From the NCBI GenBank assembly GCA_963969495.1, contig OZ018329.1, positions 66,905,243-66,969,242 on the forward strand: DNA of 64,000 bases. Reading direction: 5' to 3'. This document shows positions 5,279-60,177 of the stretch, piece after piece; position 1 is the first letter of the stretch; each line of letters starts with the position of its first letter. Source of the stretch: Ceratothoa steindachneri (lineage: Eukaryota > Arthropoda > Malacostraca > Isopoda > Cymothoidae). The translations under genes and the position numbers were made by a program. The notes under the pieces are model-generated. The model was not told where the DNA came from and did not search any database. It saw only the letters and a list, made by a program, of their open reading frames with translations.

Positions 5279-6767
5279 AACATTTCACATTCTTTATACA
5301 TACTCAGAGACTCATCACACAGTACAATAATCACTACACCAGAGGCCCACGACAACACAACATAAATCACTTACGTGCTCGCATCCTAAAGTGCGTGCAG
5401 CTAGACAGGAACCAGCAGTGGCGAGAAGTCGTCCTCATCGCGGAGGACACCCGTTGCACGGACCCTTACTTCTTCTGCCGGCCCATAAAAAGGATGTTAA
5501 GCACTGACCCATTCAAACCCATCACCCTCCAAGTAAACAACCAAACACTCACAGACACTGACGTCATCCTCGACGCATTTAGGTCCCACTGGGACACAGT
5601 ACACACACACAACCCACCAAAATCACACGCGCAGGAGCACTTCCAGAAAATCCAGGAGTGGTGTCAGACTCATGCTCACGAGCTAAAGCCTGCCCTCCTG
5701 ATACGAATGGAGCTGCTCTACTACACATCCACACTAACAACTAAAATCACCGTCGAGGAAACAGAACACTACATTAAAACAACACCAAAATGCGCCCGCG
5801 GCCTCTCCGGGCTACCAGCCAAACTTATACACAACTTCCCCGCAAACATATACCCCACACTTACACACCTATTCAACGCCTCACTAGCCTCAGGCCACTT
5901 CCCCAAAATATTCAAAGTCTCTCACAACATACTCCTACACAAACAGTACAAAGACCCAAAACACCCTAATAACTACAGGCCTATTGCTCTATTAGAGCAC
6001 CTAGGCAAAATACTCTAACGAATGGTCAACTGCCGCCTACTGGAGTTCCTGGAAGAGAGGGAATGGTTCTCCCCCCATCAATACGGGTTAAGGAGAGGCC
6101 AATTCACTCAGGTGGCCGTGACTATCGTTCACGACAGAATACAAAAAAAACCGCCAGGTACATCAAAAGACTCTCTCCATCGGTAAGGACGTGGAAAAGG
6201 CCTTCGATAAAGTGTGGCACGAGGAAATCCGTTGGAAACTCGCCAACAATACGGAGTTACCTTTCTGCACCAGAAGGCTCACATCGCACTACCTCACTGA
6301 ACGGAGCTGCCACATAAAATATAATAACACCATTTCACGACCCTTCACACCACGCTCAGGCGTTCCCCAAGGAAGCGTACTGGCACCCACACTATACAGT
6401 ATGTTCACAAATGACACCTCACGCCCACCAGAAAACTGCTGTCACACATACACAGTGGCCTACGCCGATGGCGAGACCATTCTCGTCAGCGGCCAAGGCC
6501 CAGAAGAAATCGTGCTCCACGCACAAACAATTCTAGACGAGAAGACAGATTACGAGGATAAATGCTGATTGCCACGAATCCTCAGAAGACACAGATGACA
6601 CTCTATGGCACTAGAGACCACTTCATGCACAACTTACAAATCTACTCACATTCACCAGACATGAACCACCTAAACCCGACAAGGCTCGAATACACTCAAC
6701 GTACCAAAATCCTCGGGGTAACTTTTGACAAGACCCTCAGGTTTAATATACACCAAAACATAATACG

Positions 6768-7312
6768 TAGGTGAGTCAAAAAGTTCTCAGACAAATGGCA
6801 TAAAATTTTCATTTGTAATAATACTGTAATCATTTTTCTACATAAGCTCCATTAACATCTATACACTTTCTTAATCTATGAATCCAACGGTAAAGACCAT
6901 CTTTGTAGAATTCACGGGGTTGTCTCTGGCACCAAGTAATGACCTGCTTTTTTGCTTCATCTAATGATTGAAACCGGGTTCCTTTTAGGTGTCCCTTTAA
7001 ATTTGGTTAGGTTAGGTTAGGTTAGGTTAGGTTAGGTTAGGTTAGGTTAGGTTAGGTTACCTAACCTAACCAAATTTAAAGGGACACCTAAAAGGAACCC
7101 GGTTTCAATCATTAGATGAAGCAAAAAAGCAGGTCATTACTTGGTGCCAGAGACAACCCCGTGAATTCTACAAAGATGGTCTTTACCGTTGGATTCATAG
7201 ATTAAGAAAGTGTATAGATGTTAATGGAGCTTATGTAGAAAAATGATTACAGTATTATTACAAATAAAAATTTTATGCCATTTATCTGAGAACTTTTTGA
7301 CTCCCCCTCGTA
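6768..7312. mobile_element. Mariner-derived fold-back palindrome
   Basis: Two arms of about 245 bp (6770-7016 and 7060-7310) are inverted copies of one another. Both ends carry a mariner terminal repeat (GTCAAAAAGTTCTCAGA inside) flanked by TA at 6768-6769 and 7311-7312. Read outward on the plus strand, the right arm encodes a mariner transposase C-terminus: SLDEAKKQVITWCQRQPREFYKDG, then a W-I-H-R-L-R-K-C-I-D-V block, ending Y-V-E-K and a stop at about 7245. The element is thus two mariner 3' ends joined head to head, with no catalytic core. Its centre holds a TTAGG tract. It disrupts the thumb of element A. Confidence 0.88.
7005..7071 (+). repeat. Interstitial arthropod telomere repeat at palindrome centre
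   Basis: Eleven perfect GGTTA units (7005-7059), that is (TTAGG)n, are followed immediately by CCTAACCTAACC (7060-7071). The last two units can pair with the first two, leaving about nine units as a loop. TTAGG is the canonical arthropod telomere repeat, which supports an arthropod source. Confidence 0.93.
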
Positions 7313-7771
7313 CAAGCAAGAGCCTCACGAACAAACGTTTGGCTGGGTAGGTTCTACTCTGCAAGCAAAAGACTAAAACTATACCTATACAAAGCACTCG
7401 TGCGACCTATTCTCCCGTACGCCTCACTGTTGCTCGTAGCCGCGAGCGACACGTGGAAGCGGAAGGCTCAGCGCATTCACAACTCTGCTCTGAAGCGCGC
7501 TTGCCGTTCCCCGTTGTACTCGAGAATGGCGGCACTACACAACAACAACAAATTAGCTCCTCTCAACATTTACACTCACACTAGACTTCCCAAACAACTC
7601 AGAAAATTCACCAGAGACCCACTATATACTGCGTTACACGGAAGAAGGTACGCAATGGCGCCGCGATATCCCGCGGCCCACGAACACCCGCCACCCGTTC
7701 TGCTCTTCGCAAAACTAGTAGGCATCATGAATAACGCGTTTCTAACTGAGCAGACAGCCTCGCCCTTCTGA

Positions 7772-9760: not shown

Positions 9761-12620
9761 GTAGTGTAGAGTGGATGTGAGAAAGAGACGGTAAACAATC
9801 CAAGTTTATATGTTTTCTAGCGCATTTTAGATGAGTCTATGGAGAGGGTAGGTTACCATGGTTTTGAAGTTGCATTGGGGCAAATTACATATTATAATAT
9901 CAATTTGTGTATATATTATATTATTGATATTTGTAGTAAATGATTTAGTTTTTTGAGAGGCCATGATGCTGATGGCTTTTTAAACAGTATCAGCATGATT
10001 TAGTTTTCGAAATAGCATTATGGTAATGCTTTTGGAAGCAGTGCGGATACTATCTTGTAGGTGCAGTTTATGGGGTGTGTGCTGACTCGGGTGACCTTTG
10101 ATAAGCCCTTGTGGCTTTTCACCCGTTGAATTATGTTGTTATCTTATTCCTTTACGCGCCATCACTCTTTTCGTTAAATCCCATTCAACCAATATTGTTG
10201 AATAAACTCTTAGTGAATCTCGGCTTAACTCAATCTATATCTAATAGTTGTGGATACACGATAGTTTCCCGCAAAACCAGCCATTCTATCCTCTTGTACC
10301 GTAATTTTTTCAATTATTTTCTGGAAAAAGTGGTCGCGAAGTGGCGGTGTTAAAATTTCCATTCTATAACCGCTATTATAGTCAAGTTTCTATAAGTTAT
10401 GGAATGAGTGCAGGCAATCTTCTTCTTATGCCAGAATAAACCCGGATTCACTGAATTAATACCAATAAAAAACATTGTTTCGGTCCTCTTTCCCACAATC
10501 ACAAATTACACCTATCAATCTCTCCATTGTATACATATTCAAAGATACATAAATATATCCAAGACGGTTTAAATCTTTCTCACTCTCGCTATGTAACTAG
10601 CAAAGGCCCATTACGTCTGGGAAAGAGGGAAGTTCTAAGGACAGATAGAGAGACAAATTACAAGTTAGAAAATTGAAAGGAGAAGTTATGGTGTTTGGAA
10701 CCCGAGTCATTTGGGGGTGGGGGTTATGTATTCTAAAGCAACATATGTTGGTGAAGCAAGTCTCTAGAATCACGAAACAGTCCTTATAAAACTGTACGGA
10801 AAAGTATAACTGATATTTCCCTCTTTTTTAAACCATTGAGAAAAAAAATGTCGTTCGTCTTTAAAACAACTCCGTTGTTTCAAGAACTTCATTCTGAGTT
10901 TCTTACTTTCTAAGATTTCCTGTGTAATTTTCATCTTGAATTATTAGTCTTATTATTAGGTTATTATTATTATCATTCCTTAAGTAATATTTTGTGAAAT
11001 GAATGTACAATCCTCTACTGGGAAGTACACGACAGATACAGAATCGATTCTAGCTTCTACCAAATATTCCCAAATTTTCTTGTAGACACTTTTAACTTAA
11101 GAAAAAAATTATAGTCTTTCGATTTCCTGAATAATATTTTGAAATCTGTTTGTGAGGTCTCACATAAAACTTAAAATTGGATTAAATTTTGTCAGTGTCA
11201 CTTTCCACTTTTATGTTAGGTCCTTTATCGTATAGCAAATCTCTTTGTCTGCCATCACTTTTTAACTTTTTAAATTCTTTCGAACAATCCGAGCACTTAG
11301 AGGTTTTAAAAGATCCACTCTAAACCATGTGAACTCTCTTCTGATCTACTTTAAGGTGCGGAACAGTTCAAGAATGTATTCCCTATTGGAGCATTCGCCT
11401 CATAGACGGTCTGAAATATTCAGGAGAGAGATTAGTTTTTGAATTATGACCACAAAGGGTCATTAGAAAGTTCGTATAAAATGAGACCTAATTAAAACAA
11501 AGCTTAGAATTTAAATTCTTCTTACAGTGAAATAAACTTTTCCATTCTTTTATGATAGGTATAAAGTGGTAAGATGTACATATTAACAAATAATCTATGT
11601 AAAAATAGAAGCAATGACGGGAGACACCGAATTCTTAGTAAAATTGTGTTGTAAGCAAAGTGAACTCAAAATTTTGCGGTTTTAATGTTCTCATAAACTC
11701 TTCATTTAAATACATTCAGAATACTCATTTATATAAAAAAGAAATGAATTAAAAGAGTATTTATTTTACTCCCCTGTATGAATATAACAAAAATATTCTT
11801 CTTACCCTTTTTCTTCGTCTCTAATTTTTATTCACTATTTCAACAGCAGTGCGTTATTATCCATTAAATGAGGTTTTTTTAGGAGCCCAATCTTATTTTC
11901 TCAGATTTTTCCACGAACTCAAAAATTGAATAAGTAAAGGCTATTTTCAAGTGACGCACGTGTCACAAGTAAAATGGAATAATCTTGTTTTGCTAAAATA
12001 TCCCATTCTACTCGGCGAAAAAACGTGCATTGTTTTCGATTCTTCTTATCTATGCTTTAATGGAGTAAATTTCAGTATTTTAAACCTTGCCTGATTGAAA
12101 TTGAAAAGTTGTAATAGAAACCAATTCCTATTAATGAAGAAGAATATGGTACATAAAGGGGGCAAGGTAGCCAGCTATACCAGGAGCGAAGGCCATAAGA
12201 GACGAGTATATAGCACCATTTCCTTAATTTAAAATCGACATACTTAACTATTTATCCTCTTCAAAATTTTTATCCCAGAATGAAGAGAAACTATTTTTCT
12301 AAGAAGAAAAGAGATTAATCTAGAAAGCAATTATTTACTTACAAGGAAAGAAGTGAATGAGAGGATGGACCCAAAATTTGGAGAATAATTCGTATATTTA
12401 GGTCAATTTCACAAAGGAATAAAAATGTTTTCCTGATTGGAATTGAAAAAAAAATTTCTCTCCCTAATATGAAACTTCTGAAGCATCAACGCGTCATCCT
12501 AAAAGAAGACATTTAAGGAAATCTCAAATCAATCACGCTCACTTCCACTCCGCCTCTCCATTCGAAAAGAAAAATAATCAATGGCGAAAAATTTATGTGC
12601 AAGTTTTCTTGGTTAACTTG
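9761..12620. other. Long AT-rich spacer without recognisable genes
   Basis: Nothing coding is supported across this 2.8 kb. Small hairpins lie just after the CR1-like remnant: GCCAT/ATGGC at 9960-9976, GCTGAT/ATCAGC at 9968-9994 and AGCATT/AATGCT at 10014-10030; they may be its 3' UTR. An 80-codon frame at 10111-10353 has no family signature. Confidence 0.5.
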
Positions 12621-12623
12621 ATC

Positions 12624-15600
12624 GAAAAGATAGAATGGTTAGCAGAGCTATTGTGGTTAATGTCAAGATGGAATCGTGGGCAGAGCAACCGTACTTAATG
12701 AAATAATAGAATGGTTGGCAGGGCTACCATTCTTAATAAAAAAATAAAATGGTTTTCAGAGCTACGGTGGTTAATGTAAAAATGGAATCGCGAGCAGAGC
12801 AACAGTACTTGATGAAAAAAAGAATTTTGTGCAGAGCTACAATTCTTAATGAAAAAATAGAATGGTTTGCAGAGCTACCATTCTTAATGAAAAAAAGAAT
12901 GGTTTTCAGAGCTACGATGGTTAATGTGAAAATGGAATCGTGGGCAGAGCAACCGTACTTGATGAAAAAATAGAATTGTAGGCAGAGCTACCATTCTTAA
13001 TCAAAAAATAGAATGATTTCAAGAGTTACTGTGGTTAATATAAAAATAAAGTCGTAGGCAGAGCAACCGTACTTGAGGAAAAAATAGAATGGTGAGCAGA
13101 GCTACTGTGGTTAACGTAGAAGTGGAATCGTGCGCAGAAAAACCGTACTTGATGAAAAAATAAAATAGTAGGCAGAGCTATCATGCTTAATTAAAAAAAT
13201 AGAATGGTTTTCAGAGCTACTGTGGTTAATGTAGAAATGAAATCGAGGGAAGAGCAACCGTAATTGATCATAAAAGAATAGAATAGTAGGCAGAGCTACC
13301 TTTCCTAATGAAAAAATAGAATGGCTGGCAGAGCTACTGTGGTTAATGTAAAAAGGTAATCGTGGGCAAAGCATCCGGACTTGATGAGAAAATAGAATGG
13401 TGGGCAGAGATACCATTCTTAATGAAAAAATTGAATGGTTTTCAGAGCTACTGTGGTAAATGTAAAAATGGAATCGTGAGCAGAGCAACGTAATTGATGA
13501 AAAAATAGAATGGTTGGCAGAGCTACTGTGATTATCGTAAAATTGGACTCCTGGACAGAGCAACCGTACTTGATGAAAAAATAGAATAGTTGGCAGAGCT
13601 ACCATTCTTAATAAAAAATAGAACCGTTTTCAGAGCTACTGTGGTTAATGTCAAAATGGAATCGTGGGCAGAGCATCCGTACTTGGCAAAAAAATAGAAT
13701 GGTAGGCAGAGCTACCGTTTTTAATGAAAATAGAATGGTTTTCAGAGCTAGTGTACTCGAGGAAAAAATAGAATGGTGCCCAGAGCTACCATTCTTACTA
13801 AAAATAGAATGGTTTTCAGAGCTACTGTCGTTAATATAGGAATGGAATCGTGGGCAGAGCAACCGTACTTGATGAAAAAATAGAATGTTCGGCGGAGCTA
13901 CATTTTTTAATGAATAAACAGAATGGTTTTCAGAGCTACTGTACTTGATGAAAAAATAGAATGGTGCACAGGGCTACCATTCTTATGGAAAAAATAGAAT
14001 GGTTTTAAGAGCTACTGTGGTTAATGTAAAAATGGAATCGTGGGACGAGCAACCGTACGTGGTGAAAAAATAGAATTTTTGGCGGAGCTAGCTTTCTCAA
14101 TGAAAAAATAGAATGGTTTTCAGAGTTACTGTGGTTAATGTAAAAATTCCCTGTGGCAAGAGCAACCGTAATTAATGAGAAAATAGAATGGTGGGCAGAG
14201 CTACCATTCTTAATGAAAAAATAGAATGGTTTTCAGAGCTACCATTCTTAATGAAAAACTAGGACCGTTTTCAGAGCTACTGTGGTTAATGTAAAAATGT
14301 AATCGAGGGCAGATCAACCGTACAAGATGAAAAAATAGAATGTTTGGTGGAGCTACCTTTCTTAATGAAAAAATAGAATGGTTTTCAGAGTTACTGTGGT
14401 TAATGTAAAAATGCAATCGTGGGAAGAGCAACCGTAATTGATGAAAAAATAGAATGGTTTTCAGAGCTACTGTAGTTAATGTCAAAATGGAATCGTGGGC
14501 AGAGCAACCGTCCTTGATGAAAAAATAAAATGGTTGGCAGAGCTAGCATTCTTAATGAAAAAATAAAATGGTTTTCAGAGCTACTGTGGTTAATTTTAAA
14601 ATGGAATCGTAGGCAGAGCAACCGTTCTTGATGAAAAAATAGAATGCGGGGCAGAGCAGCCATTCTCAATAAAAAAATAATGGTTTTCAGAGCTACTGTG
14701 GTTAATGTAAAAATGGAATCGCGGGGAGAGCAACCGTACTTGATGAAAAAATAGAATGGTTGGCAGAGCTACCATTCTTAATAAAAAAATAGAATAGTTG
14801 GCAGAGCTACCATTCTTAATAAAAAATAGAACCGTTTTCAGAGCTACTGTGGTTAATGTCAAAATGGAATCGTGGGCAGAGCAACCGTACTTGATGAAAA
14901 AATAGTGGTTGGCAGAGCTACTGTGGTTAAAGTAAAATTGGAATCGTGGGCAGAGCAACCGTACTTGATGAAAAAATAGAATAGTGGGCAGAACCAACTT
15001 GCTTAATGAAAAAATAGAATGGTTTTCAGAGCTACTGTGGTTAATGGAAAAATGGAATCGTGGGCAGAGCAACCTTACTTGATGATCAAAGAATAGAATA
15101 TTGGGCCGAGCTACCTTGCTTAATGAAAAAATAGAATGGTTGGCAGAGCTACTGTAGTTAATGTAAAAATGGAATCGTGGGCAGAGCATCCGTACTTGGT
15201 GAAAAAATAGAATGGTGGGCAGAGCTACTATTCGTAATAAAAAAAATGGTTTTCAGAGCTACTATACTTGATAAAAAAATAGAATTTTGTACAGAGCTAC
15301 CATTCTTAATAAAAATATAATTGTTTTCAGAGCTGCTGTGGTTAATTTCAAAATGGAATCGTGGATAAAGAAACTGTACTTGAGAAAAAAATAAAATGGT
15401 TGGCAGAGCTACCCTTTTTTAATGAAAATACAGAATGGTTTTCGGAGCTACTGTACTCGATGAAAAAATAGAATGGTGCGCAGAGCTACCATTCTTATTG
15501 AAAAAATAGAATGGTTTTCAGAGCTACTGTGGTTAATGTAAAAATGGATCGTGGGCAGAGCAACCGTTCTTGATGAAAAAATAGAATGCTGGGCAGAGCT

Positions 15601-16572
15601 ACCATTCCCAATGAAAAAATAGAATGGGTTTCAGAGTTCTTGTGATTAATGTAAAAATGGAATCGTGGGCCGAGCAACCGTACTTGTTTAAAAAATAGAA
15701 TGGTTGGCAGAGCTACCATGCTTAATGAAAAATAGAATGGTTTTCAGAGCTACTGTTGTTAATGTAAAAGTGTAATCGTGGGCAGAGCAACCGTACTTGA
15801 TGGAAAAATAGAATCGTGGGCAGAGCAACCATACTTGATGAAAAAAGATAATGGTTTTCTGATATACTGTGGTTAATGTAAAAATGGAATCGTGGGCAGA
15901 GCAACTATAGTTGATGAAAAAATAGAATGGTTTTCAGAGCTACCATGCTTAATGAAAAGGAAAATAAATTGGTTTGCAGAGCTACTGTCGTTAATGTAAA
16001 ATTTGATTCGTGGGCAGAGCAACCGTACTTGATGAAAAAATTTAATCGTTGACAGAGTAACCGTACTTGATAAAAAAATAGAATAGTTTTCAGAGGTACT
16101 ATGGTTAATGTAAAAGTGGAATCGTGGACAAAGCAACCGTACTTTATGGAAAAATAGAATCGTGGGCAGAGCAACCGTACTTGATGAAAGAATAGAATAG
16201 TTGGCAGAGCTACTGTGGTTAATATAAAAATGGAATCGTTGGCAGAGCAACCGTACTTGATGAAAGAATAGAATAGTGGGCAGAGCGACTTTGCTTAATG
16301 AAAAAATAGAATGGTTGGTAGAACTACTGTAGTTAATGTAAAAATAGAATCGTGGGCACAGCAACAGTGCTTGATGAAAAAATAGAATGGTTGGCAGAGC
16401 TACTGTGCTTAATGTAAAAATGGAATCATGGGTAGAGCATCCGTGCTTGATAAAAAAATAGAATAGTGGTCATAGCTACCGTGGTTAATGAAAAAATAGA
16501 ATGGTTGGCAGAGCTACTGTGGTTAATGAAAAGTTAGAATAGTTGCGAGAGCAACCGTACTTAATAAAAAAA
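12624..16572. repeat. Satellite array, 38-bp subunits in a 114-bp higher-order unit (left block)
   Basis: About 100 subunits of 38 bp follow one another. Each has the frame TAGAATGG-N3-CAGAGCTAC followed by a TTAATG and an A-run. Three subunit types alternate: one with TTTTCAGAGCTACTGTGG, one with CGTGGGCAGAGCAACCGT and one with TTGGCAGAGCTACCATTC, giving 3 x 38 = 114 bp. Because 114 is divisible by three and the units rarely contain stops on one strand, the minus strand shows long false open frames with a 38-residue period. Subunits diverge by point changes and occasional unit loss, as in an old satellite. The array resumes at 18.73 kb. Confidence 0.95.
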
Positions 16573-18730
16573 TATAATAATAATAGGTATTCGTTATGCT
16601 CCCTTTAGGTATGTATGTATACCTCTTAGAGCTCAGGTTGTGTAGCGAGTGTAGAGAAAGTTTACAGGCGAGAGGAGGTAATTCGGAAACGATGAGTCTT
16701 CAGGAGACTTTTAAAATTAACGAAGGAGGGAGAGGATCGGACTTTCGCAGGAAGGGCATTCCAGAGTCTAGGAGCACAAACTGAGAAGGAACGGTCACCC
16801 ATCGAGCAGAGCACATAACGAGGAGTGTTCAGGAGGGCAGCGAGGTTAGACCGGAGGGATGGAGGAGTTTGACAAAAGGAAAGGTCAGAAGAGAGATACG
16901 GTGGAGCCTCAAGTTTTCGAGCCTTGTCGTTGATGAGAAGAATTTTATCGTGGGTACGGAAGCGAATAGATAACCAGTGTAGCTCCTGTAACAGGGGCAT
17001 CGAAGGAGAGAACCGGAGATGGCGAAGTTTGAGCCAGCATCATAGTTTTGAACTAGTTGTAGGGGACGATTTGACGAAGAGTGGAGATTCACTAGAAAAG
17101 AATTGCAGTAGTCAAAGCGATCAAAATGGTATCGAGTACGTGAAAAGTTGCGGAGGAAACCCAGAGAAGACTTACATATACGATGGATGAGCGGTTTAAA
17201 CGAGAGTTGCTCGTCTTAAATAACACCAAGATTACTGATGGTATCAGAGAAGGCGGCATTGGTTTCCCCAAGGTTAAGGGAGGGGAAGAGAGCTTTAGAA
17301 TTTTCCACCATTGAAGTGGTACCAACAAGGAGAACTTCAGTTTTATCGTGTTTAAGTTTGAGAAAGTTGGCAGACGGCCATTCGTTTACTGAGTTCTAGG
17401 CTAAAAGGAGCTTGGAAATTGATTGGGAGTATGACACAGGGGATGAGGAAAGGTATGGAGGTGGAAGGACAGGCCCAAATCGCGAAGAAGGGAGCCAAGA
17501 GGAAGTAAGTAGATGCGAAAGAGGAGGGGACCAAGGACAGCCCTAAAGCACCCCAAAATGTATGCGCGCGGTCTCGGAGGAGAGGTTATTGAGTGCTACC
17601 GACTGAGTGCTGAAGGAGAGGTATGAGTGAAACCAATCAAGTGCAGTGCCTGAGAGACCAAGGAAATTGTAAGGACGATCAAGGAAGACAGTGTGGTTGA
17701 TGGTTTCGAAAGCAGAGGAGAAGTCTAGGAGTACTAGAATGGACGTACAACCCCTATAGGCTGCTCTACGTAAACCTTCTGAAACATTACGAAGAGCGGT
17801 TTCAGCAGAGTGCTTCGCATTGAACTCCAACTGGTACATTTCAGCGATATTGCAGTTAGAAATATTGTCATTAAGGCGAGAGAAAACCACTCTCTCGAGG
17901 ATCTTAGAGAGGAATGGAAGCTGTGAGATAGGGCCATAGCTAGATTGTTTAGAGGGGTTAAGGTGTGTTTTTTTAAGGATAAGACGAATTAAGGCCTGTT
18001 TGAAGGAAAAGAGGACCACCTCTGTGGCAAGTGAAGTGTTAAAAAGATGAAGAATCATTGGAAGGAGAGCACGGAGAATTTGGTGGAGGGGTTTTGGCGG
18101 AAAGACGTCCTTAGGGGATCCAGATTTGTTAGAGCGTGAGATCAGCGCCCTTACTTTCCCAGAGGACATCCGAGTGAGGACGTTAAGCGGCAATGGCGTA
18201 TGGTCGGGGAGAACAGGATGGGCTTGTTCAGACGACTGAAGTAGTACGGCGCGAAGCTTAATAACTTTATCAGAGAAAATTTTCTAAGAGTAGAGGGGTT
18301 GAGGGGGGAGAGGTGGGGCAAATTGGGCTAGGCGATGAAACACGACAGAGGAGAAGAAAGATAGTCCGAGGGTCATTCTTGCTCTCACACAGATGTTTGC
18401 GTGAATGAGCGTCGCGCGCTGATTTTAATTTGGAAGAATAAGTTGAAGTAGCAAGGCAATAGGGAAGTGAGAGAGAGGTCGTGTCCTGCCTACGGGCACG
18501 TGCCTTACAAAGGGCTCGTTCATGAGCACGTAAGGACCTCTTTGAAAGAAGGAGTTCCATGGTGAACCAAGGGGCGCGGTGATGGCAGTTTGAAGAAGGA
18601 GTGATAAAGGTGGCGTGCGCGTCAAGGCAGGCGAGTAATGATTGGTGCAAAGAGTTTTTGGTTTGGTCAGGTGAAACAGTAGTATCAATAGGAGGTAGGG
18701 CAGAAACAACGTCGTTACGGAGAGGAGTGG
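16573..18730 (-). mobile_element. L2-like non-LTR retrotransposon inserted in the satellite
   Basis: The block separates two parts of the same satellite, so it inserted after the array formed. It runs on the minus strand from a 5' truncation at about 18,730 to a 3' tail of TTATTATTATT near 16,573. Short-period tails are usual for L2/CR1-group elements. No target-site duplication could be defined because the target is itself repetitive. Confidence 0.85.
16662..18709 (-). pseudogene. L2-like reverse transcriptase, 5'-truncated
   Basis: Reading 18709 to 16662: the linker (HHRAPWFTMELLLSKRSLRAHERAL), then RT with LIRLILKKTHLNPSKQSSYGPISQLPFLSKILERVV, HSAETALRNVSEGL and LVLLDFSSAFETINH (18193-17543). 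The VPQGSVLGP box survives only in altered form (HFGVLQGCPWSP), a frameshift follows and the stretch that should hold YADD is deleted: the sequence passes from LSF-like residues straight to the SANFLKLKHDKTEVLLVG block (17370-17300). The C-terminus is well kept: LHWLSIRFRTHDKILL and GDRSFSVCAPRLWNALPAKVR (17000-16662). Reverse transcription activity is impossible. The closest groups by motif are L2 and related CR1-superfamily lines. Confidence 0.88.
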
Positions 18731-19132
18731 TGGGAAGAGCTACTGTGGTTAATGAAAAAATGGAATTGTGGGCAGAGCTACCACACCTAATGAAAAAATG
18801 GAATGGTGGGCAGAGCTACCTTGCTTAATGAAAAATGGAATCGTGGGCAGAGCAACCGTGCTTGATGAAAAAATAGAATGGTTCGCAGAGCTACCATGCT
18901 TAATGAAAATGTAAAATGGTTGCCAGAGCTACCGTGTTTAAGGAAAAACTAGAATGCTAGGCAGAGCAACCGTGCCTGGTGAAGAAATATAATGGTGGGC
19001 AGTACTACCGTACTTAATCAAAAAATAGAATGGTGGGCAGGGTTATTCTGGTTAATAAAAAATGTAATCGTGGGCAGAGCAACCTTACTTAATGAAAAGA
19101 TAGAATGGTGGTCAGAGCTATAGTACTTAATG
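18731..19132. repeat. Satellite array, right block
   Basis: About ten further 38-bp subunits, with the same CAGAGCTACC and TTAATGAAAAA signatures, continue the array after the L2-like insertion. The block ends at 19,132 where unrelated sequence begins (AATCCGCTAACC). Confidence 0.93.
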
Positions 19133-20423
19133 AAATCCGCTAACCTGTAGCAGTTGCGATCTGAGACCTAATACTGCTAAATAGTGAACACTGGCTAAGC
19201 CTCTCCAAGCTGAGTGACGTGAAATATTGGAATTTTAACAGGCTATTATAGTGGGTAGACGGCATTGCCACACATCGTGGACTGATAAGTCGCCTATTAC
19301 GGGTGCTTAATCGCCGTAAACAGCGGCCTCAGCCTCAACTCATCCAAGGTAACAGTCAAGCAACACTGGCTTACCTACAGCGTCCTTTACAGTCCAATTG
19401 GACCCTAATTGGACCGCTAATTGGACCCTGGCTGACTTGTAACATGGCGAGTGGTCCGATGACCACAGTTACACATATTTCGAGTTGATTGTATTTTGTT
19501 ACGAGTATTATTGAAGTTTGTTTTCTAATAAGGATGATGACACCTGATCATTTAGTTCAATAAACCTTTTGCTAGTGCAATATGGTAGGTATTTATTTTA
19601 CTTTGGCTATGTACTTTTTGCTTGTTTGTTTTTGTTGTCATAAGTTTGACTTTCCTGTTTTAGGACTATTTTGATCTCTCTAATGAGTTTTATATGTTGA
19701 AAACGCGTTTTTTTTAATTTAGTTCCTACCAATGTCTATCTTCTTTTACTTTTCTCCCTTTGGAAGAAGTAGTTCGTGATGTAAAGGTTTGCTATTTCAG
19801 CAAATTCTAATTATCTATTTCCACGTTATCTTGTCTCAATGCATTCCTGATTTTTGCCTCATAGAAGTTTTAAATTTTTTTTATCTGATTGTTCCTTTGA
19901 ATACTCAGCGAGAACCTTTTTAATTTTTATTACAAGTTTGATTAATCTATACATTATCCACTTAACCATCTTATTTATTTTGAAAAAATAGTAAAAAGTA
20001 ACTATTTTTTGTGTTATATTTCAACCACTTTTTTATACTGAAAAAGAAAAAAATATCTTTCATATTTTAAGAATTTACAAAAGTTTGCCCGAGTTGATAC
20101 GTTCGGTTTCGAAAAATAATTTGCCCAGGTTTAAACGTTCGGTTTAAAAAATGGAGTAAAGCATGTTTTCACTATAAAAATTATAAATCATTTCAAAACA
20201 ACTTGATTCTATATAAACATTACTTTCTAAGTATAATCATATTTGGACTGGTAATTTTGAAATCATGGTGTAAAACATAGGCCACTTTGGCAATTTCTGG
20301 AGTAGTATCTTGATTGAAGGCGAATTTTGTTCCTATGTTCGTTCTTTTTTCGTGAACAAACTTCAGATGGCCTCATTAGAATTGTTTTCTTTTCAGGTGC
20401 CGAAATAACATCCTGGAAGTGAC
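19133..20423. other. Spacer between satellite and Gypsy remnant
   Basis: No gene seen. A triple TAATTGGACC-like repeat lies at 19,391-19,427, and two related ACGTTCGGTTT stretches near 20,100 and 20,140. An AATAAA signal at 19,559 could belong to an LTR, but no second LTR copy was found to define one. Confidence 0.4.
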
Positions 20424-30285: not shown

Positions 30286-31121
30286 CTAGGGGAGGTTAAT
30301 AAGTCTTGCGAATCGGTAGGGCAAAACAGAGGAAGAAGGATAGCTGCTTGTGGGGGTGTTACGACAAGTTATGACAAGTCAGGACCTGCAGCCGCACGTC
30401 CCTGCCTCGTCTATTTAAGAAGCAGTAGCTGATCGTAGATCGTCAGTCACAAATTTTTCAACAATGGAGAAGGTTGACCACCACGCAGTGATCAAATTTT
30501 TGACCAATGAAGGCAAGAATGCAAAAGAGATCCATGAACGCATGGTTGCAGTGTACACCGACACCGCCCCTTCCTATGCAACCATTGCTCGCTGGAATAG
30601 GGAGTTCCGCCATGGTCGTGAGTCCCTTGAAGATGACCCCCGTCCAGGAAATCCGTTAGACGTCACCAACGAGGACAATGTGACCCGTGTGGAGAGGATG
30701 ATCCTTGAAAATCGACGGGTGAAGGTCGAAGAAATCGAGCGAAAACTTGCATCCCTAGAAACCTCACGCCCCATGATCGACTTCAAGGTCGTCAAAGTCC
30801 ACAATGCCAGAGTTGCACAAGCTGCCGTGCGCGAGTGCGGATTTGAGGACCTCAACCATCTCCCCAACAGTCCAGATCTGGCCCCTAGTGACTGCATTGC
30901 GTGGTCACAGGTTTGGGGACGATGAAGATGTCCAGCTCGCCGTCCAGGAGTGGATTGAACAGCAGTCGGGAGATTTCTGGTTGTCGGGAATTCGAAGCCT
31001 GAGGGACAAGTGGCGCAAGTGCCTTGAAGTCGAGGGTAGTTATATTGAAAAATAATAAAACACTTTTCCTCATATCTCGTTTCCTTATATCCGAATTGCA
31101 AAACTTATTGACCGCCCCTCG
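30286..31121 (+). mobile_element. Mariner M1, internally deleted
   Basis: Ends are CTAGGGGAGGTTAATAAG at the left and, read inversely, CGAGGGGCGGTCAATAAG at the right, with TA duplicated at 30,284-30,285 and 31,122-31,123. The transposase frame starts at 30,464. Two further copies, M2 and M3, share the ends, the coding edges and an internal deletion. M1 sits in the integrase of Gypsy element 2. Confidence 0.92.
30464..31053 (+). pseudogene. Mariner M1 transposase with catalytic core deleted
   Basis: The N-terminal DNA-binding part is well kept: HHAVIKFLTNEGKNAKEIHE, PSYATIARWNREFRHGRESL and NRRVKVEEIERKLA. Sequence then jumps to RPMIDFKVVKVHNARVAQAA and RECGFEDLNHLPNSPDLAPS. The region with the first two catalytic Asp residues is gone, and M1 also lacks about 25 residues before the junction that M2 and M3 keep. 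After a second small deletion the C-terminus is readable in another frame: FGDDEDVQLAVQEWIEQQSG, SLRDKWRKCLEVEGSYIEK, then the stop near 31,053. It could bind ends but not cut. Confidence 0.9.
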
Positions 31122-43096: not shown

Positions 43097-44037
43097 CGAG
43101 GGGCGGTCAGTAAGTTTTGAGACTCGTTAGGGCAAAACAGAAGAAGGGGGATGGCTGTTTGTTCGGGCTTTAAGACAAGTTATGACAAGTCAAGACCTGC
43201 AGCCGCACGCTCCTACCTCGTCTATTTAAGAAGCAGTAGCTGATTGCAGATCTTCAGTCACAAATTTTTCAACAATGGAGAAGCTTGAGCACTGCGCAGT
43301 GATCAAATTTTTGACCAAGGAAGGCAAAAATGCAAAAGAGATCCATGACCGCATGGTTGCAGTGTACACCGACACCGTCCCTTCCTATGCAACCATCGCT
43401 AACTGGAATAGGGAGTTCCGCTATGGTCGTGAGTCCCTTGAAGATGACCTTCATCCAGGACTCCCGTCAGACGTGACCAACGAGGACAATGTGGCCCGTG
43501 TGAAGAGGATGATCCTCGAAAATCGACGGGTGAAGGTCGAAACAGTTGAGCGAGAACTTGGAATATCACATGGAAGTGTTATCAACATCATGCACGACAA
43601 TTGGGCCATGACCAAGGTCTCTGCCCGTTGGGTCCTTAGAAACTTCACGAAAGCTCACGCCCGATGATCGACTTCAACGTCGTCAAACTCCAAAGGCCAG
43701 AGTTGCACAAGCTGCCCTGCGCGAGTACGAATTTGAGGAGCTCAACCATCTCCCCTACAGTCCAGATCTGGCCCCTAGCCACTCCTTTTTATTCTGCCAG
43801 CTCAATGCTGCACTGCGTGGACGCCGGTTTGGGGACGATGAAGATGTGCAGCTAGCCGTCCAGGAGTGGATTGAACAGCAGTCGGGATATTTCTGGTTGT
43901 CTGGAATTCGAAGTCTCAGGGACCAGACGCGCAAGTGCATTGAAGTCGAGGGTAGTTATATTGAAAAATAATAAAACACTTTTCCTCATATCTCGTTTCT
44001 TTATATCCGAATTGCAAAACCTATTGACCGCCCCTCG
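43097..44037 (+). mobile_element. Mariner M2, internally deleted
   Basis: Terminal repeats CGAGGGGCGGTCAGTAAGTT at the left and, inversely, CGAGGGGCGGTCAATAGGTT at the right, with TA at 43,095-43,096 and 44,038-44,039. Length 941 bp. Removing it restores continuity of element E around the conserved W-K-I-K-T-N block. It has the same organisation and deletion as M1 and M3. Confidence 0.93.
43275..43970 (+). pseudogene. Mariner M2 transposase with catalytic core deleted
   Basis: The N-terminal half is open from the ATG at 43,275: HCAVIKFLTKEGKNAKEIHD, PSYATIANWNREFRYGRESL, NRRVKVETVERELGISHGSV and NIMHDNWAMTKVSARWVLRN, ending at 43,667. The junction to FNVVKLQRPELHK-like sequence lacks the first two catalytic Asp residues. 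The C-terminus is readable in a shifted frame as QEWIEQQSGYFWLSGIRSLR up to 43,970. It keeps the two DNA-binding helix-turn-helix parts, so it could still bind ends. Confidence 0.9.
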
Positions 44038-45829: not shown

Positions 45830-46930
45830 TTGGGACTTGTTAATAATATTAAAGTCTAAAAGATCTAGATTATAAGAGGTCTTAATGTCCTCAAAGGAAT
45901 TTTCTTTGAATTTGTAAAATTCTTCCGCTATTTTTCTACTTTCAATATCTTTAATATTTATGATCATTTTTATTTTTTTTTAATCAATGTGTTATTAAAG
46001 TAACCCAATTGAGATCTTGAATATGTTGTTTAATTATCTAAATATCAATTCTTTCTTCACCAATGTATTTTGGGCAACAGTCCGCACAGGGAATTATCTT
46101 ACACACGACCTATACTGGGGTCGGATTTAGTTATTTTATGCCTAATGGAACAAGAGGAGACTTGTTGAATTTCATTTAGTATATATTTTCTAGAAGTATC
46201 GGAAATATTAATAGCAACTTCGAGAAATTTAACCTGAGATTTATTCAAGCTGTCATTACCATAATGAACCTATCTAGTTTTAAATAAAGTCTCCTTTAGG
46301 AAATCTTCTTTGTACCTCAATTTGTGAAACACTCGCAATGTGTTGAAATTCGTTAGCAATAGAAGTACGATTATAAAAACGAATGGCCAATGATAGGACC
46401 TTTTATAGCGGAATAATGATGGCTTTAGAACGCATGTACATACATTTTTCTCAGAGTGGATGGGTTTCCTGTATATTTAAAAAAATCAGTTTATCCTAAC
46501 TACATATTTGTCGATATTAGGACATCTACGAAAGGTAATTTTCTTTCATTTTCTTCTTCAAACGTAAAAGAAATGGAAGGGAGGATGGAGTTAAAAGAGC
46601 GAATAGAGGAATTTATGTCTACAAAAGAATTTACCACAACACCCCTGATCGGGGTTTGGCGGTAAAGATTTAACTCAGAGACGGGTTTCCTGTATATTTA
46701 AAAAAATCAGTTTATCCTAACTACATATTTGTCGATATTAGGACATCTACGAAAGGTAATTTTCTTTCATTTTCTTCTTCAAACGTAAAAGAAATGGAAG
46801 GGAGGATGGAGTTAAAAGAGCGAATCGAGGAATTTATGTCTACAAAAGAATTTACCACAACATCCCTGATCGGGGTTTGGCGGTAAAGATTTAACTCAGA
46901 GACGGGTTTTATCGCATCGCAATGCATCCA
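45830..46930 (-). pseudogene. Penelope-like element, RT end and GIY-YIG remnant
   Basis: Read from 46,927 downward: SFVDINSSIRSFNSILPSIS, FTFEEENERKLPFVDVLIST and TDFF-x-IYRKP, the conserved block after the RT palm in Penelope-like elements. This block occurs twice because of a 221-bp tandem duplication. Downstream, LRVFHKLRYKEDFLKETLF, SQVKFLEVAINISDTSRKYI and, in shifted frames, PKIHW/CCPKYIGEERID-like sequence recall the start of the GIY-YIG nuclease. Stops are frequent. The catalytic RT motif itself is not seen. Confidence 0.7.
46462..46903. repeat. Recent 221-bp tandem duplication
   Basis: Unit 1 (46,462-46,682) and unit 2 (46,683-46,903) differ at about two positions (AATAGAGG/AATCGAGG; ACACCCC/ACATCCC). 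It lies inside the Penelope-like remnant, so that element was already present. Confidence 0.93.
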
Positions 46931-52893: not shown

Positions 52894-52911
52894 GAAAAAA
52901 TAGTGGAAATA

Positions 52912-53844
52912 CGAGGGGTGGTCAATAAGTTTTGCAATTCGGATATAAGGAAACGAGATATGAGGAAAAGGGTTTTATTATTTTTCAATATAACTACCCT
53001 CGACTTCAATGTACTTGCGCCACTTGTCCCTGAGGCTTCGAATTCCCGACAACCAGAAATCTCCCGACTGCTGTTCAATCCACTCCTGGATGGCGAGCTG
53101 CACATCTTCATCGTCTCACCAAACCGGCGTCCACGCATGCAGCCAAAAGCTGGCGGAATAAAAAGTAGTCGCTAGGGGCCAGATCTGGATTGTAGGGGGG
53201 ATGGTTGAGCTCCTCGAATCCGCACTCGCGCAGGGTAGCTTGTGCAACTCTGGCCTTGTGGACTTTGACGACGTTGAAATCGATGATGGGCGTGAGGTTT
53301 CTAGAGACCCAACGGGCAGAGACCTTGGTCATAGCCAAATTGTCGTATATGATGTTGATAACACTTCCATGTGATATTTCAAGTTCTCACTCGATTTCTT
53401 CAACTTTCACCCGTCGATTTTCGAGGATCATCCTCTCCACACGGGCTACATTGTTCTCGTTGGTCACGTCTGATGGGCGTCCTGGACGGAGGTCATCTTC
53501 AAGGAACTCGCGACCATGGCGGAACTCCCTATTCCAGCGAGCAATGGTTGCATAGGAAGGGGCGGTGTCGGTGTACACTGCAACCATGCGTTCATGGATC
53601 TCTTTTTTACATTCTTGCCTTCCTTGGTCAAAATTTGATCACTACGCGGTGCTCAAACTTCTCCATTGTTGAAAAATTTGTGACTGACGATCTGCGATCA
53701 GCTACTACTTCTTAAATAGACGAGGCAGGAGCGTGCGGCTGCAGGTCCTGACTTGTCATAACTTGTCCTAACACCCCCACAAACAGCCATCCCCCTTCCT
53801 CTGTTTTGCCTTATCAATTCGCAAAACTTATTGACCGCCTCTCG
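52912..53844 (-). mobile_element. Mariner M3, internally deleted, minus strand
   Basis: Terminal repeats CGAGGGGTGGTCAATAAGTT at the left and, inversely, CGAGAGGCGGTCAATAAGTT at the right, with TA at 52,910-52,911 and 53,845-53,846. Length 933 bp, nearly equal to M2. Inverted relative to M1 and M2. Confidence 0.93.
52980..53666 (-). pseudogene. Mariner M3 transposase with catalytic core deleted
   Basis: The frame starts at the ATG at 53,666, with a one-base loss in the first 20 codons. Then PSYATIARWNREFRHGREFL, NENNVARVERMILENRRVKV, a stop, the block AMTKVSARWVSRNLTPIIDF, NVVKVHKARVAQATLRECGF and EELNHPPYNPDLAPSDYFLF. The junction RNLTP/IIDFNVVKVHKARVAQ is in frame and the same as in M1 and M2 at nucleotide level. 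The last catalytic Asp region remains and the first two are gone. The C-terminus is shifted and ends near 52,980. Confidence 0.9.
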
Positions 53845-53846
53845 TA

Positions 53847-55079
53847 TGTTTACTGATTTTTTCTTATCTCGGTCTTCTGGACGAAAGAATTGCAAGATTT
53901 TTCCTTCCTGTTTCATTTTATAGCAAAGATTTTGAGGATAATTTTAATCTCAAACTCTTTTACCAAAATCTGTAATAGAATCGATCCAAAATTCTAATTT
54001 TAAAGATACATTTTGTTTTACGAGCTGAGATAAAAATGTGCAGATTATAAATAAATTTAGCTAACAAATTTATTATGAATTTTAATTAATTTATCCCAAG
54101 GTTTGGCTGATTTAATATACGGGCTTTCTTACTGTGTTTAAAAAATAGAATAACCATACTTAAACTATAGCTTCAATATTGTTGAATGTATCGAAAATTA
54201 AATAATACTTGGGAAATACAAAAGGCAACAAACTAATGAGAAAAAAATTATTGGAATGTCTATAAGTAGGTACTAACACAACACTGGAATATTTTTCGAA
54301 AGCCTATCTAAATTAGAGAACGCTGGTTTAAGGCCAATGGAAAATATAGAAAATAGTGAATTTATTTCTTTTCTTTTAGAATCCGTGTTTTTTATTTTAA
54401 TAGATTTCTACAACTAATAAAATTATGTATACAATACATCCCCAGCCCCTGATTTTTTCGAATAGTGTAGGATGGGCAGGAGACATTAATTCATCAATTA
54501 GACATCTAGAGATGCTATTGCTCTCCCGAAAGGAGTTTTAGGTAACCTTATTTGAGAACGCGGATTGAGAGGAAAAGTATGATAGGCTGGCCGGCCAGTC
54601 AAACCGAACACACTATCACTCGTCTAATAAATAATGGTCTTTATTTATTAGTTTTTAATTGTAAACTTTGTGATCATCATCATGAGGGAAGCACCTAACT
54701 GAATGAAAACACTACTTCCGACATAAAGGTAGTTATACCATATTAGATATAGCAAGTGGTCAGTTGAGAATGGGTTTTTAGTCAAAATTTCGATGGCTAA
54801 CATATAGTGTTGCTACATGGTGGTCGATCCACACTTTAAATGTAGGTGCCCACCGAGGAAGGCAACAGTCAGGGCGAATTGGTGGCAAATCCTTTAGTAA
54901 AACAATATAATCATCATCGTAACTCTTGATATGGGTCAATGTTATCGGATGGAGTAAAGGAAACATGTTGAAAATGCTTACGCGCGCGCGAGAGAAGCAG
55001 CTTTTAAGGATGTCGAATGGATAAATCCCATAATTTAATCCAAGGTTATTTAACGCATTTATATGGACAATAGCGATGA
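53847..55079. other. AT-rich spacer
   Basis: No supported gene. A perfect 12-bp palindrome CTGGCCGGCCAG lies at 54,587-54,598. A 146-codon minus-strand frame (54,778-55,218) crosses the edge of the following hAT-like element and is probably chance. Confidence 0.4.
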
Positions 55080-56031: not shown

Positions 56032-56858
56032 TTGTGTCGCACAAAAAACACAATGTCACCATCAAAGAGAGTGTGTAAGTCTAGAGAAGTGCTAATGCGC
56101 CTACTCCCTGCTACAAAAGATTCCGCAATGGAAGAATACCTACGCCAGGGTAGCAAAGCTACGGGGAAAGAAATAAAAGAGACCCCAGAACTAAAGATCA
56201 ACATTAATGTGAACTAGGAAACGAGCCTAGACATTCTAGCCAGTATTATGTACGCCCAAGTCCAAAATATTGCACAACCAGGGACTTTCTCGGAAACGCT
56301 CAATCTTCTTCTTGAGAAAAACGGAGTTAGAAAGATTTAGTTCCCCCTGAACCCCCCCGCCCCCCTTTGGCATTAGTATACGGGGTAACGACGGGCAAAA
56401 CCCTTCAGATTAAGGATATGCTGAAGATAGAAGCAAAGATGCAAGCAAATCAAGAAACAAACGAAACAGATGAACTCAATGAAGAGGAAAAAGAAACAGA
56501 CACTTCAGATAACGAGCAGAAAAAGGCAAAGAAAAGCTACAGGAAAACTAAAAAAGGCCCAATTAAAAGAAATCAATCAGAAACGGATACACAAACCGAC
56601 TCAGAGAGTGAAATAGAGAGCGGGAAAGGATGTCGATACGAAGCAAAGGATTTCAAGCTGAAGATCTTCGTTAACGAGGCCTTCTCCCTACCCAAAGGTA
56701 CGAAAATAGAAGATATAAGAAAGAGTATCGACAGAGGTACCAGAAAATGCAACTATGTAACTGACCATGACGAAACAACCATTCAAAAATTAATCGAAGA
56801 GAACAAAATAAGGATCTTCCCCAACGACGTTAAAATTATCAAGAATGCTACCTTTTAG
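56032..56858 (+). pseudogene. Non-LTR element F, first ORF1 copy
   Basis: Residues SPSKRVCKSREVLMRLLPAT and a stop at 56,216 precede LDILASIMYAQVQNIAQPGT and FSETLNLLLEKNGVRKI (56,229-56,337), the shared ORF1 module. A frameshift leads to the charged frame 56,367-56,858: EEEKETDTSDNEQKKAKKSY, then a basic stretch, a serine-acid stretch (SETDTQTDSESEIESGKG) and the C-terminal block IDRGTRKCNYVTDHDETTIQ, LIEENKIRIFPNDVKI. Zinc knuckles are missing, presumably 5'-truncated. Positions 56,123-56,704 are duplicated at 57,532-58,114. Confidence 0.75.
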
Positions 56859-57531: not shown

Positions 57532-58204
57532 CCGCAATGGAAGAATACCTACGCCAGGGTAGCAAAGCTACGGTGAAAGAAATTAAAAGAAACCCAAGAA
57601 CCAAAGATCAACATTAATGTGAACGAGCGAATGAGCCTAGACATTCTAGCCAGTATTATGTACGCCCAAGTCCAAAATATTGCACAACCAGGGACTTTCT
57701 CGGAAACGCTCAATCTTCTTCTTGAGAAAAACGGAGTTAGAAAGATTTAGTTCCCCCTGAACCCCCGCCCTCCCCTTCGGCATTAGTATACGGAGTAACG
57801 ACGGGCAAAACCCTTCAGATTAAGGATATGCTGAAGATAGAAGCAAAGATGCAAGCAAATCAAGAAACAAACGAAACAGATGAACTCAATGAAGAGGAAA
57901 AAGAAACAGACACTTCGGATAACGAGCAGAAAAAGGCAAAGAAAAGCTACAGGAAAACTAAAAAAGGCCCAATTAAAAGAAATCAATCAGAAACGGATAC
58001 ACAAACCGACTCAGAGAGTGAAATAGAGAGCGGGAAAGGATGTCGATACGAAGCAAAGGATTTCAAGCTGAAGATCTTCGTTAACGAGGCCTTCTCCCTA
58101 CCCAAAGGTACGAACGCAAGAAAAATCAAAGAAAAATACTCGGAAATAAGAATTTTAGGTACAAACAGACAAAGAAGCAGGGAATTAAAAAGACTTAAAA
58201 AGTA
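57532..58204 (+). pseudogene. Non-LTR element F, second ORF1 copy
   Basis: The first 583 bp repeat 56,123-56,704 with few differences, mostly point changes. After ACGAA at 58,110-58,114 the copies diverge: here NARKIKEKYSEIRILGTNRQ follows, which is the ORF2 linker, so the ORF1 C-terminus and the whole endonuclease are skipped. The product would be an ORF1 start fused to an ORF2 linker. Confidence 0.85.
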
Positions 58205-60177
58205 AATGGTCTTTTAGATAAAAGAACAACAAAAAGAAAACTAGAAAGAATTCAGGAACAAAATAGTGGCCACGGAAAACCCAAGTGAGGCCTGGAGAAT
58301 GATACAATCAAAGGAAAACCACCAAAAGATCCAATAAAAATAAAGAACAAACAAAATAAATACCTCCAAAGCAAAGCAGAAATAGAAGAGAAGTTTAGAG
58401 GACATTGATAAAATATTTATACAATAGAAGAAAAAGAAGATAATAAGCGATTCGTCAGCGAAACAGAAGAAATGTTCATCGAAAACCTAAAAAGAAACAT
58501 GGAGAGAATAACACCACTTAGGAGGGTCGATGTGAGTACAGAAAAGTACGCGGGATTAGGAGCTCTAATCACTCTGGAGGAGGTAAAAAGAACAATCACC
58601 TCCTTTAAACAAAAGGCACCCGGAAATACCGGGCTCACAAAACAAAACTACGACAAAGCGCCTGAAAAGATACAAATATATATTAAAGATCTATTTAATG
58701 CATTCCTGAATATCAGTGCGTATCCACGAATCTGTAAAGTTGCAAAGAGGGTTTTCCTTCACAAAGCAGGAAAAACACCGAAATTGGTATCAAATTACAG
58801 ACCAATATCGCTGCTTAATTTTCTGGGAAAGGTATTCGAAAAAATACTGAATACGAAACTCGTGGAACACCTTGAAGATCAGGGAAATACAATGAACACC
58901 AGTACGGCTTCAGGAAGAGAAGAGACGCAACTATGGCGCTAGCGGTCATAACCGAAAAAATCGCACAGACCAAATCTGAAAAAGGATATGTGGACGTGGT
59001 ACTTCGGGATGCCGAGAAGGCCTTCGATAAGATATGGGTGGAGGGGTTAAATACAAACTCCTCCAACTCGTTCTCGGCAACAGGATGGAGAGAATCCTGG
59101 CTGACTACGTAACAAACAGAGAGGCTTAGATTGACATTGAAGACCACGAAGGACCCAAATTCCAGCTGAAAACTAGGGTCCCACAAGGAGGGGGGTGCTT
59201 GAGCCCCACTTTTTATTCAATGTACATAGCAGATATGGCACCTCCATTTACACTAGGCTGCATGAATATGCAATACGATGACATCAGCCAGGTGATCTCC
59301 ACACGAACCACAAATCCCAGATGGCAAGCTAGGACAACAGAGCGAGAGATACAAAATATAAATGAATTCGAAAGGAGATGGAAAATTAAAACCAACCTAA
59401 ATAAATTTAAAATAATACCAATAATGAGAGTAAAAAAGGACAGGATAACAATCAACGGCACATAGTACAGGTACACAGCCGAAGGAAAGGTGTTGGGCCT
59501 GCAGATGGGGGAAAGAGGATGCCACGCCCACGTAAAGGAGAGGATTGCAAGGGCTAAATCAGGCCTGAGATTGATATTCAGCTTGAAACCTCTGGAGCAG
59601 AAAAGAAAAAGATGTTCTACAAAGCATTTGTAAAGTTGGTGCTAGTGTATCCACCTATCCCCATCCATACAATAACTATGACAAACAAACAAAAATTACA
59701 AAGAGTACAAAATAAAGCGGCCTCACCTTATTACTAATACAAGGAGCCAAGAAGGAAAGACACTCCTCAAAATAATGGATATGGCAGGGCTAGACCCAAT
59801 AAATAAAATTATTGAGAAACGGGCCAAAGAAATCTGGTAAAAAGTTGAGGTAAATAACCAGGAAACTATAAGAATTCTGGAAATAGAAAACATCAATTAC
59901 GACCGTCAAATATTCCCCAGCAGTAGGCTCCACCTACGCCGAGAGGAAGACCCAATAATCACCTAAAACAAAAAGAAAACATGCAAAAACTATCACAAAG
60001 TCATGAATGCCTCAAAACAAAGAACAGGGACATAACTGCATAAATTAAAGGAATTTAGAACAACCTAGCATAAATATGGAAGGAAAGCATACATGAAGAC
60101 TAATAATATCGAATTTGTAATCGAATTAGAAGTACGTTACCGAAAGGTACCCCAAGCAACAAAATTAAGATTTTGAC
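58205..60177 (+). pseudogene. Non-LTR element F, linker, reverse transcriptase and thumb
   Basis: The linker (FIENLKRNMERITPLRRVDV) leads to RT: TITSFKQKAPGNTGLTKQNY, VAKRVFLHKAGKTPKLVSNY, RPISLLNFLGKVFEKILNTK (58,472-58,870). A frameshift at about 58,890 gives QYGFRKRRDATMALAVITEK, VDVVLRDAEKAFDKIWVEGL, a further shift and FQLKTRVPQGGGCLSPTFYS. The catalytic box is M-Q-Y-D-D-I: one codon between Tyr and Asp-Asp is lost. The thumb reads NINEFERRWKIKTNLNKFKI, then a stop, GKVLGLQMGERGCHAHVKER, MDMAGLDPINKIIEKRAKEI to about 59,970. Confidence 0.88.

Follow-up and report, generated by a model that had tools for sequence, protein, structure and literature searches.

In the genome of Ceratothoa steindachneri, short palindromes with a telomeric core form a family of mariner MITEs by which telomeric repeats are dispersed. 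One copy lies in the stretch of 64,000 nucleotides analyzed here (the window). We consider it highly probable that this element is a palindromic, non-autonomous derivative of mariner (a MITE) that the transposase of a young 1302-bp parent mobilises in trans and that goes back to a single founder, which probably arose by fold-back copying and telomere addition.

Structure of the palindromic element

The 545-bp palindrome occupies positions 6766-7310 of the window and has a TA duplication on both sides. Its features, and the retrotransposon that it interrupts, are given below.

6122..7771, + strand: decayed non-LTR retrotransposon interrupted by the palindrome (RVT_1 frame 6122-6565; second frame 6601 onward)
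6764..6765, no strand: left TA target-site duplication (sequence at the element edge)
6766..7310, no strand: entire palindromic element, 545 bp (arm pairing; identical unit at further loci)
6766..6797, + strand: T-type tip, 32 nt identical to the parent mariner 5' end, CGTAGGTGAG... (T-arm majority sequence)
6766..7006, + strand: left arm, the T-type tip and then the parent 3' region inward to AAATTTGG
6833..7006, - strand: mirror copy of the last 58 mariner transposase codons (palindrome symmetry with the right-arm remnant)
7007..7059, + strand: long telomeric array, (TTAGG)10 + TTA
7060..7069, - strand: short telomeric array, (CCTAA)2, head-to-head (its length is 2 units in 56 of the 59 copies measured)
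7070..7310, - strand: right arm, consisting of parent 3' end sequence, with the A-type tip, CGAGGGGGAG...
7070..7243, + strand: last 58 codons of a mariner transposase (PNLKGHLK...GAYVEK), stop codon at 7244-7246
7311..7312, no strand: right TA target-site duplication (sequence at the element edge)

The arms, of 241 nt each, differ at five sites, every one of them in the outer 45 nt. They are 98% complementary over 254 bp and the structure recurs across the genome (see below), which excludes chance pairing. As in foldback-like elements, long inverted repeats (the two 241-nt arms) make up most of the 545 bp. The sequence at the centre is AAATTTGG(TTAGG)10TTA(CCTAA)2CCAAATTT, with GG(TTAGG)10 TTA (CCTAA)2 CC as the core, and TRF detected 11.0 perfect 5-bp units at 7005-7059.

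The first-pass annotation had described a mariner palindrome with a TTAGG core and TA flanks, all of which are present, although it drew the limits at 6768-7312 and the exact element is 6766-7310. It also saw two mariner 3' ends facing each other. This holds for the right arm, which is purely of 3' origin, but not for the left arm, whose outer 32 nt are the parent 5' end. This 5'-type tip had been missed, as had the existence of both core orientations and the amplified family.

The 58 right-arm residues ending in GAYVEK match the C-terminus of the Hsmar1-derived SETMAR (E 1e-5) and of Mos1 (E 0.0024). When used alone, this 58-aa tail, a very short piece, gave no Pfam match, and as the query in a further protein search it gave no matches. 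Its assignment to mariner is therefore based on the SETMAR and Mos1 matches and on the full-length parent, and not on Pfam.

The parent mariner and its native joint

The parent is a 1302-bp mariner in the same genome, with a start codon at 189. A search for the arm running on into sequence other than TTAGG yielded 2372 matches with at most two mismatches. Since MITE arms are among them, this is not a count of parents. The first 20 loci listed, all on contig C1, served as the parent sample. An intact 349-aa transposase frame was found in 17 of these 20, and TA was present on both sides in 15 of the 17 parents of standard length.

The parent protein matches PF01359 and Mos1 (E 7.4e-51). D,D34D is the spacing rule of mariner transposases; the catalytic residues of the parent are D158, D252 and D287, and 34 residues separate D252 from D287. 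The inverted ends are alike over 32 nt with four differences, which together with the 1302-bp length and the TA duplication is what characterizes a mariner. Thus, the mariner origin first proposed for the palindrome is borne out by both the tail matches and the parent transposase. Among the 120 of 5540 matches that were listed, a protein of identical sequence was present in ENA contigs, and the named matches of at least 60% identity were from an amphipod and Trichuris suis. The parent is like the Mos1/Hsmar1-type mariners (Mos1 and SETMAR/Hsmar1 matches, D,D34D, TA duplication, 1.3 kb), whereas the palindrome has no transposase gene and carries instead its last 58 codons twice, inverted, together with the telomeric core.

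In all 20 fetched parents, the native joint reads AAATTTGG|AAACAG, without TTAGG. This bears on one of the origins suggested in the first-pass annotation, that the core is an ordinary microsatellite which expanded by slippage from a GGTTAGG native to the mariner. With 5 to 24 units in 59 copies, the long array is hypervariable and is still changing in length. However, the complete mariners compared have AAATTTGGAAACAG at the joint (20/20), the seed is absent from them, which counts against growth from a native seed, and slippage does not produce the (CCTAA)2 on the opposite strand. We therefore regard this explanation as very improbable.

Insertion as one unit

It had been suggested from the TA flanks that the whole palindrome moved as a unit, and the interrupted retrotransposon supports this. 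Its second frame (from 6601) resumes at 7313 when the palindrome is taken out, and in silico removal of the palindrome and one TA leaves a frame of 204 codons that reads through the retrotransposon without a stop. With the palindrome in place, this frame stops at the third codon of the element. Thus, the palindrome inserted as one unit. The RVT_1 domain upstream is in a different frame, so this copy of the host retrotransposon is itself decayed. The flanks elsewhere agree: TA was found on both sides in 56 of the 61 copies on contigs C1 and C2 in which both ends were readable.

A genome-wide family with one joint

We searched the 3.93 Gb genome (529 contigs) for the joint (TTAGG)nTTA(CCTAA)2. 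The query GGTTAGGTTACCTAACC was found exactly at 534 places and its reversed control at 1, and the family occurs inside chromosomes at roughly 500 places. A first arm search had given 690 candidate places, of which 40, all close matches, were scored. In 39 of these first-fetched loci two arm ends enclose a TTAGG core; the remaining one, L032, is without one arm, lost inside the core. Other copies of the arm, which the first-pass annotation had proposed to look for, are thus inversely paired around a TTAGG core. It should be noted that these 40 copies are biased to close matches of one arm, and the counts of tips and orientations were therefore taken from a complete sample, all 64 joint places on C1 and C2. 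Of these, 63 are family members, with both ends readable by script in 61; L116 was rejected because it is unrelated sequence. L032 and L029 are truncated members of the family.

The concern that the palindrome is an assembly inversion, or two unrelated mariners face to face around a TTAGG tract, can practically be set aside. The joint is present at 534 places, 30 loci have TA flanks and surroundings that differ among copies, the arms end at one base, and at the emptied site the retrotransposon frame reads through without a stop. Instead, the copies have one odd joint in common, which points to descent from a single founder. They are non-autonomous, have the ends of an autonomous partner, show their own TA duplication and are numerous, as mariner MITEs are. 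The shared ends, the low divergence of both and the intact parental frame suggest, at the level of sequence, that the palindrome is mobilised in trans by the parent transposase.

Several further observations were made on these copies. In L032 (C2:128272254), L123 (C1:230067870) and L124 (C3:64348742) the truncation breaks lie inside the telomeric core, as if it were a site of breakage or recombination. L027, L028 and L029 (C2:53.27-53.36 Mb) are three copies within 91 kb with an identical 6-unit core, perhaps a local duplication; L029 has lost its 3'-type tip. Among 30 insertions, L069-L098, pure (TA)n extends over 20 nt on both sides in 7 and on at least one side in 11, so such tracts serve as insertion sinks. 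L025 lies within another short palindromic sequence (agggacattgcattcat... / ...atgaatgcaatgtccc). No relatives in viral contigs were confirmed, and a single 18-mer match in a Synechococcus record was taken to be chance.

A grafted tip

To locate the join between the two kinds of parental sequence, majority sequences of 17 parents, 30 T arms and 29 A arms were compared. The parental 5' and 3' ends differ over 32 nt solely at sites 2, 3, 6 and 26. Over its whole 241 sites, the 3'-type arm of the MITE shows no difference from the parental 3' end. The T arm has the 5'-type base at each of the four diagnostic sites and 3' sequence from position 32. These bases place the switch point within AAATG, at the inner edge of the shared repeat, and resolve it to 5 nt.

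The chimeric-arm sequence has 625 exact matches (copies with the base in both arms counted twice), and among the 100 places listed, 5 were without the exact joint nearby. The candidates for a precursor were rejected: the joint of L122, a family member, is mutated, L123 and L124 break off within the core, the truncation of L126 lies in its arm, and L125/L127 is a parent carrying one base change. We also found 6 palindromes with a core of at most 28 nt, and all 6 contain telomere repeats. No intermediate (a single arm capped with TTAGG, or a palindrome free of TTAGG) was present among these short cores and the five odd arms of the 100 listed.

Tip pairing, core orientation and age

All 59 readable tip pairs on C1 and C2 consist of one 5'-type (T) and one 3'-type (A) tip, and homotypic pairs were not found; the 3'-type tip is damaged in 2 further copies. 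The long array is beside the 5'-type tip in 43 copies and beside the 3'-type tip in 16. It varies from 5 to 24 units in 59 copies. The short array has 2 units in 56 of the 59 measured, 3 in two and 1 in one. Since the copies have common ancestry, these tip and orientation counts are not independent events.

Compared with their majority sequence, the arms carry 18 substitutions over 59 arms x 206 sites, or 0.15% (one indel arm dropped), and the copies are therefore young; the parents (n = 17) are 0.20% divergent. Single variants occur with both core orientations: T at site 6 of the 5' tip in 38 and 12 copies, G at this site in 5 and 4, and C at site 34 of the 3'-type arm in 2 and 3. This fits repeated exchange between the arms, which may have turned the core around relative to the tips. 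Homotypy was observed at site 26 (10/61) and at site 6 (9/61), and at sites 2-3 in 0 of 59 readable pairs. This pattern suggests that the mover may need unlike ends. PMC4505599 reports that two mariner transposases prefer one of their ends.

Origin of the telomeric core

As at a telomere formed de novo, the G-rich strand of either arm extends inward from the broken end, which makes the centre a head-to-head telomere joint. The host telomere repeat itself appears to be TTAGG, as judged from subterminal arrays. (TTAGG)24 has 12,859 overlapping matches in the genome, and arrays of at least 24 units are present near both ends of C1 and point outward (among the matches listed, all on C1). None of the 8 contig ends examined has a TTAGG run of at least 4 units, and one of these consists of N over 2,500 bases. 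Separately, TTAGG arrays were seen at L099 (~190 bp) and at C1:344403-350024 (~325 bp by the match list), ~0.34 Mb inside the C1 end, and the sequence beside them includes a mariner-like end.

Addition of repeats by telomerase at a broken mariner end is plausible, since both the repeat orientation and the common break point agree with it. At the parental break, the last two bases, GG, are in register with TTAGG, a 2-nt match that is weak and could be chance. We infer an origin by fold-back copying and telomere addition. The founder would have consisted of 32 nt of parental 5' tip followed by an inverted parental 3' region, the TTAGG/CCTAA core, and an ordinary 3' region with its tip. During repair of a break or an excision gap, a strand copying the 5' inverted repeat may have switched at the inner edge of this repeat to the inverted 3' repeat, and then have copied a broken 3' fragment as far as AAATTTGG, where the fragment ended. 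Run-off copying would explain why both arms end at one base, provided that the template, a 3' fragment, terminated at CCAAATTT. Telomere repeats would have been added at the AAATTTGG end, probably by telomerase, and the fold-back end afterwards closed or copied through. Later, transposition would have spread the unit, the long array varied in length, and arm exchange flipped the core relative to the tips. The T tip could also have been gained later, by gene conversion, rather than at founding.

Two other routes to the core were weighed. A break within a mariner might have been capped by telomerase on the 3' half at a chromosome end, with sister ends fusing head-to-head, excision by transposase, and conversion to a 5' tip at a later time. 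As telomere fusion predicts, the G-rich strands point inward from the broken ends of both arms, and both arms end at the same base and otherwise equal the parental 3' end, as expected for sister fusion. However, this route requires an extra event for the 5' tip, and copies with two 3'-type tips number 0 of 59 readable pairs on C1 and C2. We regard it as unlikely. It is also rather doubtful that a ready-made TTAGG fragment was captured by end joining while the palindrome formed, without telomerase at the break. Many TTAGG arrays exist in the genome, and formation of interstitial telomeric repeats (ITSs) at breaks is described in PMC7215372, but capture alone leaves unexplained a head-to-head core with a short, stable second array.

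With fold-back copying and telomere addition as the preferred origin, a broader reading may be offered tentatively, and we hold it as possible rather than likely: a transposon born from telomerase or telomere-type repair of an aborted mariner intermediate, which needs unlike ends and has an invertible core. If true, the palindrome would be a self-spreading source of interstitial telomere repeats across the genome.

Comparison with known elements and interstitial telomeric repeats

A MITE carrying a simple repeat is a known kind of element; new are the telomeric head-to-head core, its two orientations and the grafted unlike tips. The tandem-repeat MITEs in PMC9659126 (Xenopus Xmix/Xstir and miDNA4, and lepidopteran elements with (GTCY)n) are also short, non-autonomous and spread a simple repeat, whereas here the telomere motif is the repeat, and it stands head-to-head in the middle of a near-perfect palindrome. 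Long inverted arms are shared with the foldback-like elements Galileo (PMC4168063) and Tetris (cited in PMC9659126). PMC4168063 proposes template switching during gap repair as one origin of defective Galileo copies, but Galileo belongs to the P superfamily, and its elements as described there have no telomere core.

Head-to-head telomere repeats are common to the palindrome and to the known ITSs, which comprise a fusion type (human 2q13) and short ones inserted at breaks, and in PMC7215372 and PMC8537989 break repair with telomerase is proposed. In these accounts they are separate single-locus events, whereas here a transposon spreads the repeat. The palindrome has the head-to-head repeat of fusion-type ITSs, (TTAGG)nTTA(CCTAA)2, but is not the mark of a chromosome fusion, as it is dispersed over hundreds of places with TA duplications in 56 of 61 copies. 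Among titles and abstract openings of the open-licence literature, a scope in which a precedent could be missed, we found no mariner or MITE with a telomeric core.

Spread of interstitial telomere repeats by transposons has been proposed, and for one class, the TERC-ITSs, it was argued against (PMC9693754 and PMC8537989). One young family of about 500 copies, with its parent still present and a shared founding joint, bears on this question. It also allows direct tests of how a palindromic MITE is born, of whether unlike ends are needed, and of what telomere repeats do within chromosomes.

Other features of the window

Mariner-like remains are present at 52895-53861, with inverted ends containing ACGAGGGGTGGTCAATAAGTTTTGC, and at 43230-43971 and 30419-30925, with a Mos1-type HTH. 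Arrays of a related 38-bp tandem repeat occupy 12616-16578 and 18728-19135 (about 104 and 11 units, respectively), and a 221-bp unit occurs in two tandem copies at 46462-46909 (99% matches). Near-identical frames starting with KDLVPPEPP were found at 56331-56858 and 57741-58205, ~1.4 kb apart.
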